This document shows positions 7,039 through 61,827 of a DNA stretch of 64,000 nt, in pieces. Each line of letters starts with the position of its first letter. Position 1 is the first letter of the stretch. Made by a program: the position numbers and the translations under genes. The notes under the pieces are model-generated. The model was given only the letters and a program-made list of their open reading frames with translations, ran no database searches and had not been told where the DNA came from. The stretch spans positions 1 to 64,000 of the forward strand of contig JALEJI010000011.1 in assembly GCA_022769825.1 (NCBI GenBank), in the 5' to 3' direction. Source of the DNA: Prevotella sp. (GTDB lineage Bacteria > Bacteroidota > Bacteroidia > Bacteroidales > Bacteroidaceae).

Positions 7039-8985
7039 ATGATAGACAGGCAGACTGTTGAGAAAATCAAGGACGCGGCCAACATCGTGGATGTCGTGTC
7101 GGAGTTTGTCACGCTGAAGAAGTCGGGTGCCAACTACAAGGGCCTGTGCCCCTTCCACAACGAGAAGACCCCGTCGTTCTATGTCTCCCCAGCCCGAGGC
7201 ACCTGCCACTGCTTCGGCTGCGGCAAGGGCGGCAACGCCGTGACGTTTATCATGGAGCACGAGCAGCTCACCTATCCAGAGGCCCTAAGATGGCTCGCCA
7301 AGAAATATCACATAGAGATAAGGGAGCGCGAGCTGACCAACGAGGAAAAGGAAGAGCAGTCGAAGCGCGAGTCGATGTTCATCGTCAACGAATGGGCGGA
7401 ACACTATTTTGAGGATCTTCTCCACAACCATCCCGACGGCAAGGCCATAGGCTTGCAATACTTCCGCTCGCGCGGCTTCCGCGACGACATCATCAAGAAG
7501 TTCAACCTCGGCTACGACCTGCCCGACCGCTTTTTGCTTGCCACGGCTGCCAAGCAGAAAGGCTACAAGGAGGAGTTCTTGGTGTCAACCGGCCTGTGCT
7601 ATAAGACCGAGCGTAACGAGCTCATCGACCGCTATGCCGGCCGCGTGGTGTTTCCCTGGACAGGCGTGAGCGGCAAGGTGGTGGGCTTCACGGCGCGCGT
7701 GCTCGACAAGCGCACGAAGGGCGTGAACCAGAAATATGTCAACTCTCCCGACTCCGAGGTCTTCCACAAGGACCATGAGCTGTACGGAATATGGCAGGCC
7801 AAGCGAGCCATAGCCAAGGAAGACAGGGTGTTCATGGTTGAGGGTCAGGCCGACGTGATATCCATGCACCAGTGTGGCATCGAGAACGTGGTGGCCAACT
7901 CCGGCACAGCCTTGAGCCTGCACCAGATACACATGCTCCACCGCTTCACGGCCAACATCACGCTTATCTACGACGGCGACGCGGCTGGCATACAGGCGGC
8001 CCTGCGAGGCACCGATATGCTGCTTTCCGAGGGCATGAGCCTAAGGGTGCTGCTGCTGCCTGGAGGGCAAGACCCCGACGAGTTTGCGAGGAACCACACA
8101 GCCGAGGATTTCCGAAAGTATATCGACGACAACCAGGAAGACTTCATACAGTTCAAGACCTCGCTTCTGCTCAAGGGCGAGACTGACCCGAAGAAACGCG
8201 CCGACGGCATCAACTCCATCGTGGAGAGCATATCCATGATACAAGACCCCATCTTGCGCGACACTTATATCCATGACTGCTCACAACGCATAGGCATGGC
8301 GGAGGCCACGCTCATCAGCAGGATGAACACTTACATCAGGAGCAAGAGCCCATACGCCACGCCGCAGCCCAAGGCCGACGCGCAGAGCGCGGAGGAGCAC
8401 GTGGTCGACGACAAGGGCAAGGCATCGTCGCTCATCGTCAGGCTCATCGTGAAGCATGGCGAACACGTCATATATAATAATGTGGAAGACGACAATGGCG
8501 TTTGCCATAACCTCACGATAGCGCAGGTGGTGGAATACAGTCTGGCGCAAGACCACCTCAACTTCAGCAACGAGCTGTACAACCGCATATTGCACGAGGC
8601 GGCGGAGAAAAGCGCCGACGCTCAATGGAAGGCCGAGCCTTATTTCCTGCACCACGACGACATCGACATCTGCCGAGTGGCGACGGAGCTGTCGGCCGAC
8701 GACTACCACGTGACACAGCCGAAAGACGAGGAGGAAGCCATGAACGAGGAGGCACGGAAACAGCAAGAGACCAACAAGACTGACGCGCTCAGGGGGCAAA
8801 CAGAGCACTTGCTTCTCGACTTCCGCATGAGCTACGTGGAAAAGCACCTGAAGGAGCTACAGGCGCAAATGATGAAAGTGGCAGGCGACATGGACAAGCT
8901 GAAGAAGCTGATGGAAGAGTTCAAGGACATGCAGCAGATACGCAACCTGCTCGCCAAGAAGCTCGGCAACAACATCTTCATATAA
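7039..8985 (+). CDS. dnaG: DNA primase DnaG
   Basis: Start reassigned to MIDRQTVEKIKDAANIVDVVSEFV; zinc finger CPFHNEKTPSFYVSPARGTCHCFGC, TOPRIM VFMVEGQADVISMHQCGIENVVANSGTAL and YDGDAAG. Confidence 0.97.
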   Translation: MIDRQTVEKIKDAANIVDVVSEFVTLKKSGANYKGLCPFHNEKTPSFYVSPARGTCHCFGCGKGGNAVTFIMEHEQLTYPEALRWLAKKYHIEIRERELTNEEKEEQSKRESMFIVNEWAEHYFEDLLHNHPDGKAIGLQYFRSRGFRDDIIKKFNLGYDLPDRFLLATAAKQKGYKEEFLVSTGLCYKTERNELIDRYAGRVVFPWTGVSGKVVGFTARVLDKRTKGVNQKYVNSPDSEVFHKDHELYGIWQAKRAIAKEDRVFMVEGQADVISMHQCGIENVVANSGTALSLHQIHMLHRFTANITLIYDGDAAGIQAALRGTDMLLSEGMSLRVLLLPGGQDPDEFARNHTAEDFRKYIDDNQEDFIQFKTSLLLKGETDPKKRADGINSIVESISMIQDPILRDTYIHDCSQRIGMAEATLISRMNTYIRSKSPYATPQPKADAQSAEEHVVDDKGKASSLIVRLIVKHGEHVIYNNVEDDNGVCHNLTIAQVVEYSLAQDHLNFSNELYNRILHEAAEKSADAQWKAEPYFLHHDDIDICRVATELSADDYHVTQPKDEEEAMNEEARKQQETNKTDALRGQTEHLLLDFRMSYVEKHLKELQAQMMKVAGDMDKLKKLMEEFKDMQQIRNLLAKKLGNNIFI

Positions 8986-9164: not shown

Positions 9165-9552
9165 AATGTAAAATATTATTGCCAAAATTTAACACTTGGA
9201 AACAGGGGCAAATAGAGCGGGAAAAGGGTAGCCTTCGGCTCTTTTACAACACCGTCGGGGGCTTTTCGGCCATTTTTGTTTGCCGTTACGGTGCAATCGC
9301 GTCGCCGTTACACCGTAATCGCAACGCGATTACACCGTAATGGTGACGCGATTACACCGTAACGGCGACGCGATTACAGTGTAACGGCGACGCCATTTTA
9401 GTGAATTTGCAACTCCGAAAAACCGCTAAAAACATAATCGCCTAATAGTCAGTAATTTACCAAAACAGCCCATAATCGCGTTATTTCCAGCCAAGTGACA
9501 GCTTGGTTGAAAAAAATCGATTCCCAGACGACCATTTGTTGAATATTTTGAT
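9165..9552. repeat. Dispersed intergenic element, copy A, carrying five 22-bp tandem units
   Basis: Shares flanking blocks with 36423-36810 (AAAATATTATTGCC...TTAACACTTGGAA on the left; CCCATAATCGCG[T]..ATTTCCAGCCAAG.GACAGC.CGGTTGAAAAAAATCGATT.[C]CAGACGACCATTTGT on the right). Internal array 9282-9391. Confidence 0.9.
9282..9391. repeat. 5 x 22-bp tandem repeat, near-palindromic TTACACCGTAA core
   Basis: gccgttacggtgcaatcgcgtc / gccgttacaccgtaatcgcaac / gcgattacaccgtaatggtgac / gcgattacaccgtaacggcgac / gcgattacagtgtaacggcgac, all in exact 22-bp phase. Confidence 0.95.
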
Positions 9553-9681
9553 ATACTTCGTATGCTTTGCAGAGGCGGCCCCTTGTAATGCCTTTGTTGG
9601 CGACGCCAATATAATAATGTATAAATTCATGCGCATTATTAACTATATTTGCTACCTTTGCACATTACAAATGAGAAGTCC

Positions 9682-11400
9682 ATGCAAATAACCGACATCA
9701 TAACCAGCATTTCTTTCATCTTGATGGCCATAGCCGTAACCGTCCTTGCAGTGCTAAGGATTCTGGGCTTGAGAAAGGCCATGGGGACGACGTGTCAAGG
9801 CGACATCAAGGCCATGATAAAACGGGCCTTGAAGCAACTTAATGTCAACGCGGAATGGACAAGCGACAAGGACGTGCACACATTACGCTTCGCATATCAA
9901 GGGGGCCACTTCAGCATAGACATAAGGAAAGGCCAGGATTTTGCCACGCTGAGCTATCTCTATTTCTACAACGCCGGCATGGACAGCATAGAGAACGTGC
10001 GCGCCGTGTGCAACCTGTGCAACCTCAACGCCGACAATTGCCGCATAGTCTACACCGTGGACAGCAAGGAGAGCAGCGTGGACGTGCATTACATAAGCGA
10101 CATTCACGCCACGCGAGAAGACATAGGACAAACGTTGCAACTTGCCATGGGCGAGGCCTTCCGCTGGCAAAACACTTTCTCGAAGAAACTTGATGACATA
10201 GGCAAGGACCGGAAAGGCGACAAAGAGAAAAAGGTGGCCGAAATGAACAGCGAGATTGAGCTGATGCGCGAGCAAGAAATGACCCACCAAGCCGAAGGGT
10301 CGGAATGGCACGAGTCGGCAAGCCAGCCTTTCAGCCTGAAGCACGTGATAGCCACCACCTTGGGGCTAAACGCCATAGTGCCCATCGGACTGACGATTAC
10401 CGAGAACGAGACGGCCAAGACCATCTCCGACACCAATGACATATTGGGCATGAACGTTCACGCCATGCTCATCGACGACGGCAAGTTCAAATGCAAGTCG
10501 GCGTTTGCCAAGCTCGACTTTTACGACCCTCGCGACCTGTCACAGGAAAGGCACCTGATGATGGACCTTGAGGCCGACGGACAGACCAAGGACACGCTCT
10601 ACTATCGCGTCACGCTGTCGGTGTCGCCGACGTCACGGAACAGCGATACCGACATCAACTCATGGCAGCGACAGAAGAAGATGACGAGCGTGCTGCTCGG
10701 CTACGACCTCACGCCCTCGGAGGACCGGCTGGCGCATTTCAACTACGTATGGAAAGAGGCCATGAGCAAGGCCAAGAACGGCGACGAGGCAAACATGACC
10801 GAGGAGGAGAAGACGCTCGCCAACATGCAGAGCGCGCACATAGCCAAGAACTTCCACATGGGCAAGCACCTGTATGCCCAAAGGCGTTTCCACGAGGCAT
10901 TGGGCCACCTGACCGACGCCTACCACGAGCTGGAAGACAAGTGGGCACAGGGCGACCGAGGCTGCCACGACTCATTATGGGAGACAGCGTATCTCGTGGC
11001 ATGCTGCCACATGGCCCTCGGACAATATGAGATGGCATGCTTCTACATACAGGCCACCGCGCCTTTCGACATAGGCAAGTTCACCAAGGTGTATGTCAAC
11101 TGCCTGGTCAACAACAAGGACTTCAGGGCCCTCGACGCCATAAACATATTGCTCGACGAGCTGGACCATCTACAAGGAAACGACTTCATCGGGGATGATG
11201 ATGACGACGACGAACAATACGAACCAAGCAACACGCAACTCGACAGCTTCATCAGTTTCGTAAGGCGGCGCAAGGCTTACCTGCTCGTGAGCCTCGGCAG
11301 ATACGACGAGGCGAAAACCATACTCACGGCGATGCTAAAGGAGCCCGAGAACAGCGACTTCGCCCTCAACGAACTGGCATATATACAGAAAAACAAATGA
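9682..11400 (+). CDS. Uncharacterised membrane-anchored protein with C-terminal TPR-like region
   Basis: N-terminal TM (IITSISFILMAIAVTVLAVLRIL), YbjN-like region (RFAYQGGHFSIDIRKGQDFATLSYLYFYN), then TPR-like HMGKHLYAQRRFHEALGHLTDAYHELEDK and LLVSLGRYDEAKTILTAMLKEPENSDFALNELAYIQ. Confidence 0.6.
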   Translation: MQITDIITSISFILMAIAVTVLAVLRILGLRKAMGTTCQGDIKAMIKRALKQLNVNAEWTSDKDVHTLRFAYQGGHFSIDIRKGQDFATLSYLYFYNAGMDSIENVRAVCNLCNLNADNCRIVYTVDSKESSVDVHYISDIHATREDIGQTLQLAMGEAFRWQNTFSKKLDDIGKDRKGDKEKKVAEMNSEIELMREQEMTHQAEGSEWHESASQPFSLKHVIATTLGLNAIVPIGLTITENETAKTISDTNDILGMNVHAMLIDDGKFKCKSAFAKLDFYDPRDLSQERHLMMDLEADGQTKDTLYYRVTLSVSPTSRNSDTDINSWQRQKKMTSVLLGYDLTPSEDRLAHFNYVWKEAMSKAKNGDEANMTEEEKTLANMQSAHIAKNFHMGKHLYAQRRFHEALGHLTDAYHELEDKWAQGDRGCHDSLWETAYLVACCHMALGQYEMACFYIQATAPFDIGKFTKVYVNCLVNNKDFRALDAINILLDELDHLQGNDFIGDDDDDDEQYEPSNTQLDSFISFVRRRKAYLLVSLGRYDEAKTILTAMLKEPENSDFALNELAYIQKNK

Positions 11401-36422: not shown

Positions 36423-36810
36423 TTGTAAAATATTATTGCCAAAAATTAACACTTGGAAGCCAGTGATTTTAGAGCGGAGAAACAGCTCGAGGCTACCCTC
36501 TGGGCAACCCCAGCAGCCAGTTTTCAGCCATTTTTCCTTGCCGTTACGGTGTAATCGCGTCGCGATTGCACTGTAACGGCGACGCGATTACGGTGTAACG
36601 GCAACGCGATTGCACTGTAACGGCGACGCGATTGCACTGTAACGGCGACCCCGATTGTCAGTTTCGGCATCACCTGAAAATCACCAAAAACACAATCGCT
36701 TAATAGTCAACGCTTTACCAAAACCGCCCATAATCGCGTCATTTCCAGCCAAGAGACAGCTCGGTTGAAAAAAATCGATTCTCAGACGACCATTTGTAAA
36801 ATATTATTAT
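36423..36810. repeat. Dispersed intergenic element, copy B, carrying five 22-bp tandem units
   Basis: Homologous to 9165-9552; here both ends carry TTGTAAAATATTATT (36423-36437 and about 36795-36809). Confidence 0.9.
36540..36649. repeat. 5 x 22-bp tandem repeat
   Basis: gccgttacggtgtaatcgcgtc / gcgattgcactgtaacggcgac / gcgattacggtgtaacggcaac / gcgattgcactgtaacggcgac / gcgattgcactgtaacggcgac. Confidence 0.95.
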
Positions 36811-36862
36811 CACATCAAATCGGTGCAAAACGGTTGGAAGACGGTGTGCGTAATTGGAGAAA

Positions 36863-61554: not shown

Positions 61555-61621
61555 AAAAGTCACTTGAAAAACGTGCACATATATAATAAAAGTCGCTAGA
61601 AAAACGTGCGCCATATATAAT
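61555..61621. repeat. Two tandem 33/34-bp direct repeats
   Basis: aaaagtcacttgaaaaacgtgcac-atatataat / aaaagtcgctagaaaaacgtgcgccatatataat. Confidence 0.9.
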
Positions 61622-61717
61622 ATGGCAATATAAACCACTCATTACAAGATGTTTAAAAGATTGTATGCTATTGGAGCGCACGAGGATTTCTCCCCCCCCC
61701 ACGCGCCGTACCAGATT

Positions 61718-61827
61718 TTCGCCGCGGTTTGGTACGACGAGTACCAAGGCGTGGTACAGGCAGTACCACACCGTGGTATTGAGAGTACCACACCGTGGTA
61801 CAGAGAGTACCACGCCGTGGTATTCCA
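61718..61827. repeat. 22-bp tandem array (four good units plus one degenerate), palindromic TACCACaccGTGGTA core
   Basis: 61718 ttcgccgcggtttggtacgacg / 61740 agtaccaaggcgtggtacaggc / 61762 agtaccacaccgtggtattgag / 61784 agtaccacaccgtggtacagag / 61806 agtaccacgccgtggtattcca. Confidence 0.93.

Follow-up and report, generated by a model that had tools for sequence, protein, structure and literature searches.

A probable BOX/BrickBuilt-like mobile element with an array of 22-bp palindromic units in a Prevotella genome

Introduction

Small non-autonomous repeats of the BOX and BrickBuilt type are known from a few pathogens. The BOX elements of Streptococcus pneumoniae are composed of a boxA leader, variable boxB units and a boxC tail, and about 125 copies are present per 2-Mb genome. 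They are intergenic and folded, are over-represented between convergent genes, carry terminal inverted repeats with target duplications, and are regarded as parasitic and non-autonomous (PMC3049150). The BrickBuilt MITE of Porphyromonas gingivalis, with 19 copies, consists of a leader, a variable number of tandem 23-nt units (AGAYCATARTATCCTCTCRTRTG) and a tail; it is intergenic, has long predicted stem loops and IS5-like inverted repeats (GAGACCTTTGCA), and is found in a narrow host range (PMC4596501). In the Correia or NEMIS elements of Neisseria, the terminal inverted repeats are long, the termini are TA, and there is no 22-bp array (PMC2229807).

Here we analyze an intergenic element from Prevotella sp. 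that was noticed in a stretch of 64,000 nucleotides (contig JALEJI010000011.1, positions 1 to 64,000), to which we refer as the window.

Results

A preliminary description of the window had reported two copies of an element that share their flanks and enclose 110-bp arrays, and this is borne out by the alignment of positions 9165-9552 (copy A) with 36423-36810 (copy B) over about 388 bp, in which left and right blocks are conserved. A period of 22 was found by TRF and by autocorrelation. The parts follow the same order in A and B (Table 1), with a left terminal block that begins with TGTAAAATATTATTGCC, a leader that varies, the 110-bp array, a tail, and a right terminal block that ends CCATTTGT and is followed by a second TGTAAAATATTATT-like repeat, degenerate in copy A. 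Unit 1 of the array had been called the same degenerate variant in both copies; beyond being degenerate, it is an inverted unit that matches the reverse complement of the consensus. Copy A has dnaG (recognized by Pfam DnaG domains) on one side and a gene with weak TPR matches on the other, and copy B separates a polysaccharide-biosynthesis gene from a Mur ligase/alanine racemase gene that is convergent with it.

Table 1. Parts of the two element copies in the window (z, fold z-score of the array as single-stranded DNA; R1, tail model).
Copy	Part	Position	Strand	Remarks
A	Left terminal block	9166..9202	+	Direct repeat TGTAAAATATTATTGCC plus AATTTAACACTTGG; nearly invariant among 50 five-unit copies
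A	Leader	9203..9281	+	Variable, ~22% divergence
A	Array	9282..9391	+	Five 22-bp units, unit 1 inverted; predicted long hairpin; z -7.5
A	Tail	9392..9503	+	IHF-like stretch ATAGTCAGTAATTTA from 9445; small hairpin CCAAG..CTTGG; R1 match 9419-9561
A	Right terminal block	9504..9552	+	GGTTGAAAAAAATCGATTC-CAGACGACCATTTGT plus degenerate right direct repeat; 74 genome matches
B	Left terminal block	36423..36456	+	Direct repeat TTGTAAAATATTATT
B	Array	36540..36649	+	Five 22-bp units, unit 1 inverted; z -4.8
B	Tail	36650..36761	+	IHF-like stretch from 36703; R1 match 36676-36820
B	Right terminal block	36762..36811	+	Includes right direct repeat TTTGTAAAATATTATTATC

The element ends are direct repeats (TGTAAAATATTATT). 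No terminal inverted repeats were found at these ends, and no target duplication is clearly separable from the conserved direct repeats. The shoulders on the left and right are semi-conserved and ragged, so the true outer boundary is uncertain.

The two copies in the window are not alone in the genome, which was surveyed as one draft assembly (2.34 Mb, 87 contigs, 86% complete). BLAST revealed dozens of full copies, and a pattern search of the genome at no more than 3 mismatches returned 84 left ends and 74 right ends compared with 0 for the reversed control, which excludes chance. There are about 80-90 copies, a total given as a range because some ends lie at contig edges and are possibly halves of one copy. 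With regard to a parent IS with matching ends, those left-end matches with readable sequence lead into the element itself, and several others stop at contig ends; element copies coincide with many contig ends of the assembly. From fetched genome stretches, 75 copies could be paired left to right. The whole element is dispersed and not the unit alone, as the preliminary description held. The core has five units and a length of 369-371 bp (mode 370 bp) in 50 of the 75, with lengths of 133 to 392 bp outside this mode. The earlier statement of exactly five units holds for both window copies, but genome-wide five is only the mode among copies with 0-7 units, one of which has lost its array.

All 75 paired copies are intergenic, outside the genes predicted by codon usage, and they have no consistent orientation to genes: the neighboring pairs are convergent in 22 cases, divergent in 18 and codirectional in 27. 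Consistent with the earlier claim that no ORF explains the region, no frame is kept open and the median longest stop-free runs span 33-57 codons. A check of Rfam gave no family above the gathering threshold for the element. No matches were obtained in an exact-pattern scan of GTDB genome contigs, in pattern scans of viral contigs, or in plasmid and phage records, and no description of the element in Prevotella was found among open-licence papers. A CRISPR array was also considered and rejected; the 22-bp units are contiguous, without spacers.

The consensus unit of 22 bp is about GCGATTACACCGTAACGGCGAC. Units are oriented '<>>>>' or '<>>>' in 37 of the 75 copies, and an inverted first unit is also present in most others. 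Because the first unit usually runs opposite to the others, the array is predicted to fold back into a long hairpin. As RNA, the median array fold z-score is -7.95 over 71 copies, with values below -2 in 70 of them. Both strands fold well. The hairpin or cruciform array suggested in the preliminary description is strongly predicted by the fold z-scores, and other species retain the 22-bp phasing with units of unrelated sequence. The RNA consensus fold of 50 copies has a strong energy, few truly compensatory pairs and much unit-against-unit pairing; on account of that pairing pattern, we base no RNA function on this fold.

Conservation is distributed unevenly along the element. Pairs among 50 five-unit copies average 77% identity and reach 87% at most; one pair with unequal arrays reaches 91%. 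The terminal blocks diverge from the consensus by 3-4%, the array by 13%, and the leader and the initial part of the tail by 22-29%; the middle of the element diverges by about 30%. Each terminal block is approximately 36 bp long, and 21 of the 36 columns of the left block are fully invariant among the 50 five-unit copies. On a tree, changes in the terminal blocks fall on terminal branches in 111 of 125 cases, compared with a fraction of 0.80 expected from branch lengths (p = 0.013). This excess fits a constraint that acts on the ends mainly while copies still move, followed by decay, although the evidence is only modest, since the interior still changes faster than these blocks.

In the tail, 51 of 74 copies have the IHF consensus WATCAANNNNTTR on one strand or the other, versus 1.65 in shuffles. 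Window copies A and B carry AGTCA, departing from the strict consensus. An association with IHF is also a property of the RIB/RIP elements of the REP/BIME group.

Several loci bear on whether copies have moved. From the stop of dnaG at 8985 to the start of the next gene at 9682, the gap here measures 696 bp, and in four relatives with DnaG identities of 78-81% and the same next gene by sequence, the gap is 70-223 bp and the element is absent. One empty site is known, at L116, where a single repeat has a typical shoulder on its left and a right flank on its other side; it could reflect deletion between direct repeats instead of enzyme-driven excision. A copy in the genome of another species (G323; L142, contig C144, 7001-7383) is 94% identical over the core to copy L003 of the host genome, and the two have about 38 bp of left shoulder and about 105 bp of right shoulder in common, with unrelated outer flanks. 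Recent transfer could account for this copy, and so could mis-binning of its contig, given that the G323 assembly is a draft of metagenome type. Between copies L005 and L015, the left terminal block and over 200 bp of flanking sequence to its left are shared, whereas the cores are only 83% identical and the right flanks differ. Copies thus recombine with one another, and the L005/L015 breakpoint is inside the element. Recent transposition within this genome is unsupported because no two of its copies exceed 87% identity (91% for the pair with unequal arrays), but near-identical copies could hide at assembly breaks.

The genome has a single detected Y1_Tnp (RAYT-like) gene (L300 1100-2220, G000 contig C74), which is flanked on both sides by a second, REP-like repeat family (TGCAGGGGCGGGCCCTGTGCCCGTCCGCAACCCGAATGG; TGCAGGGGCGGGCCCTG...), and no tail-model match was found in this locus. 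In a screen for a REP-like repeat (GTATGCTTTGCAGGGGCGG) next to the right end, 32 of the 75 copies matched, and a copy of the REP-like repeat that flanks the Y1 gene adjoins copy A at 9566-9610. The frequent position of the REP-like repeat immediately to the right of the element, in one orientation, suggests targeting or a composite unit. Inclusion of the right shoulder in the element was rejected, as a second REP-like family, independent of the element, makes up much of this shoulder; both are present in the G323 copy. No mobilizing gene for the element was identified. Elsewhere in the window, positions 61730-61824 hold another 22-bp palindromic array (AGTACCACACCGTGGTA units) that has strong hairpin potential (z -7.3) but not the terminal repeats of the element; the unit of this array was not found in the other genome stretches examined. 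Just before it, at 61555-61622, are a 33-bp tandem repeat in two copies and a tract of C.

Relatives were sought in 399 sampled genomes of the genus, among which the close form is nearly confined to the host genome. Diverged members were reached through weak matches (L158, L187, L192, L183, L184, L188 in G353, L156 in G089, L159 in G190 and L154 in G328) and through dnaG neighborhoods (L253 in Segatella maculosa, L207 in KA00344, and L235 and L233 in rumen bins). At least eight other lineages keep the leader, the tail and the 22-bp period with unrelated units. Of ten relatives tested, nine have their strongest internal period at 22 bp and one has it at 44 bp, again with unrelated unit sequences. 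Folding exceeds chance in 10 of 12 arrays from relatives (z from -2.8 to -7.3), the exceptions being L156 and L159. A second tail hairpin is significant in some relatives only, and we make no claim for it.

The preliminary description had also proposed a model-based search of related genomes. A sequence-only tail model built from 20 members, with at most 7 places scored per genome, finds matches in 227 of the 399 genomes (E 0.001 per genome). The condition under which the preliminary description would have been refuted, a lack of other copies, is answered by the approximately 90 copies in the host and by relatives throughout the genus. Roughly half of the tail-model places tested have an array (period 22, occasionally 21), and some are shorter palindromic elements without one. 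L215, which is outside the training set, again has a 22-bp array of another sequence, and L208 has a left end and tail with no clear array. L286 and L287 contain palindromes, either free-standing or carried in a tail, whose arms are AAAACTCGCGTATTT-like or AAAACTCTCGTATTT; they may represent an older family of palindromes that gave rise to the tail.

Discussion

We believe that the element is probably a non-coding, non-autonomous mobile element of BOX/BrickBuilt-like character, present in this genome through a lineage-specific burst of an old Prevotella-group family. It comprises a terminal direct repeat, a leader, phased 22-bp units predicted to form a hairpin, a tail containing an IHF/HU-like site, and another terminal direct repeat. 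A candidate recombinase or transposase acting in trans would recognize both of the invariant terminal blocks, each about 36 bp long, with insertion or excision by a crossover in or near the TGTAAAAT repeat, and a protein of the IHF/HU family may bend the tail. The number of array units might shift by slippage or recombination, with the array retained for its fold or its phasing. Once inserted, copies would stay in tolerant intergenic DNA, where they decay and recombine with each other.

Some of the same features would be expected of a chromosomal element that serves the host, wherein phased 22-bp palindromes and an IHF-like site provide a platform for nucleoid or gyrase-type proteins and have been selected at about 90 places. 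The period is kept across lineages despite the unrelated units, the tail carries an IHF-like site, and the terminal blocks are nearly invariant in copies that otherwise average 77% identity. However, such a role is unlikely given that the orthologous dnaG site has no element in four relatives, that the closest sequence relatives are almost absent from the genus, that copies decay, drop units or have no array, and that changes in the ends are concentrated on terminal branches. Alternatively, the copies might be structured small RNAs or RNA control elements whose hairpins act in transcripts. In favor of this are the very stable predicted RNA folds and the preservation of the hairpin in most relatives with different sequence. 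Against it, both strands fold well, as expected of palindromic DNA, and there is little compensatory change in the element's own family beyond unit swaps. An RNA of this kind, which moreover has no Rfam match and no constant relation to neighboring genes, seems quite unlikely to us.

It is very improbable that the element is REP/BIME-like and is moved by the single RAYT-type Y1 transposase of the genome. The presence of one Y1_Tnp gene and the frequent REP-like neighbor at the right end (32 of 75 copies) speak for this possibility, but the gene is flanked by the other repeat and not by the element, several genomes with strong tail-model matches have no Y1 match (G353, G317, G012, G407, G201 and G207), and both length and layout are unlike those of REPs.

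An apparently undescribed family comparable to BOX and BrickBuilt thus seems to be widespread in the Prevotella group, whose members are major bacteria of the gut, rumen and mouth. That the 22-bp period is fixed while the units change freely leads to testable alternatives, in which the array is kept for DNA phasing, for hairpin shape or for a binding protein, and the mosaic copies indicate that element copies act as recombination points. As a rather unlikely conjecture, there might exist a genus-wide class of small mobile DNA that is defined by its geometry and not by its sequence. The array would be swapped wholesale between species while period, hairpin, leader and tail persist, implying co-evolution with a fast-changing and so far undescribed partner that binds the array, such as a recombinase or a double-strand-binding protein.

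Among known systems, the element agrees with MITEs in general in being short, non-coding, high-copy and intergenic, but it lacks terminal inverted repeats. Its ends may bear a partial resemblance to Xer/dif sites. With Correia or NEMIS elements it has in common a short, abundant, non-coding and hairpin-forming sequence with an IHF site in some copies (PMC2229807), and it differs in having the 22-bp array and no long terminal inverted repeats or TA termini. REP/BIME elements with RAYT (PMC2817692) are similar in that their palindromic units alternate in orientation, in their high copy number and location between genes, and in their nucleoid-protein sites, whereas the layout here is much longer and fixed, with no association with the RAYT-like gene of the genome. 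Comparing architecture alone, BOX elements are similar in modular layout with variable n (0 to 7 here), in copy number and in orientation-free intergenic placement; they are unlike this element in that it has direct-repeat ends and phased 22-bp palindromic units, and occurs in another phylum. BrickBuilt shares the order Bacteroidales, the leader-units-tail layout with a variable number of units, the intergenic location, the long predicted stem loops and the narrow host range, but the Prevotella element has a 22-bp unit of other sequence, direct-repeat ends, about 90 copies and an inverted first unit. Because it has no inverted ends, and its unit and ends are different, the element belongs to neither BOX nor BrickBuilt, and matches them in kind alone.
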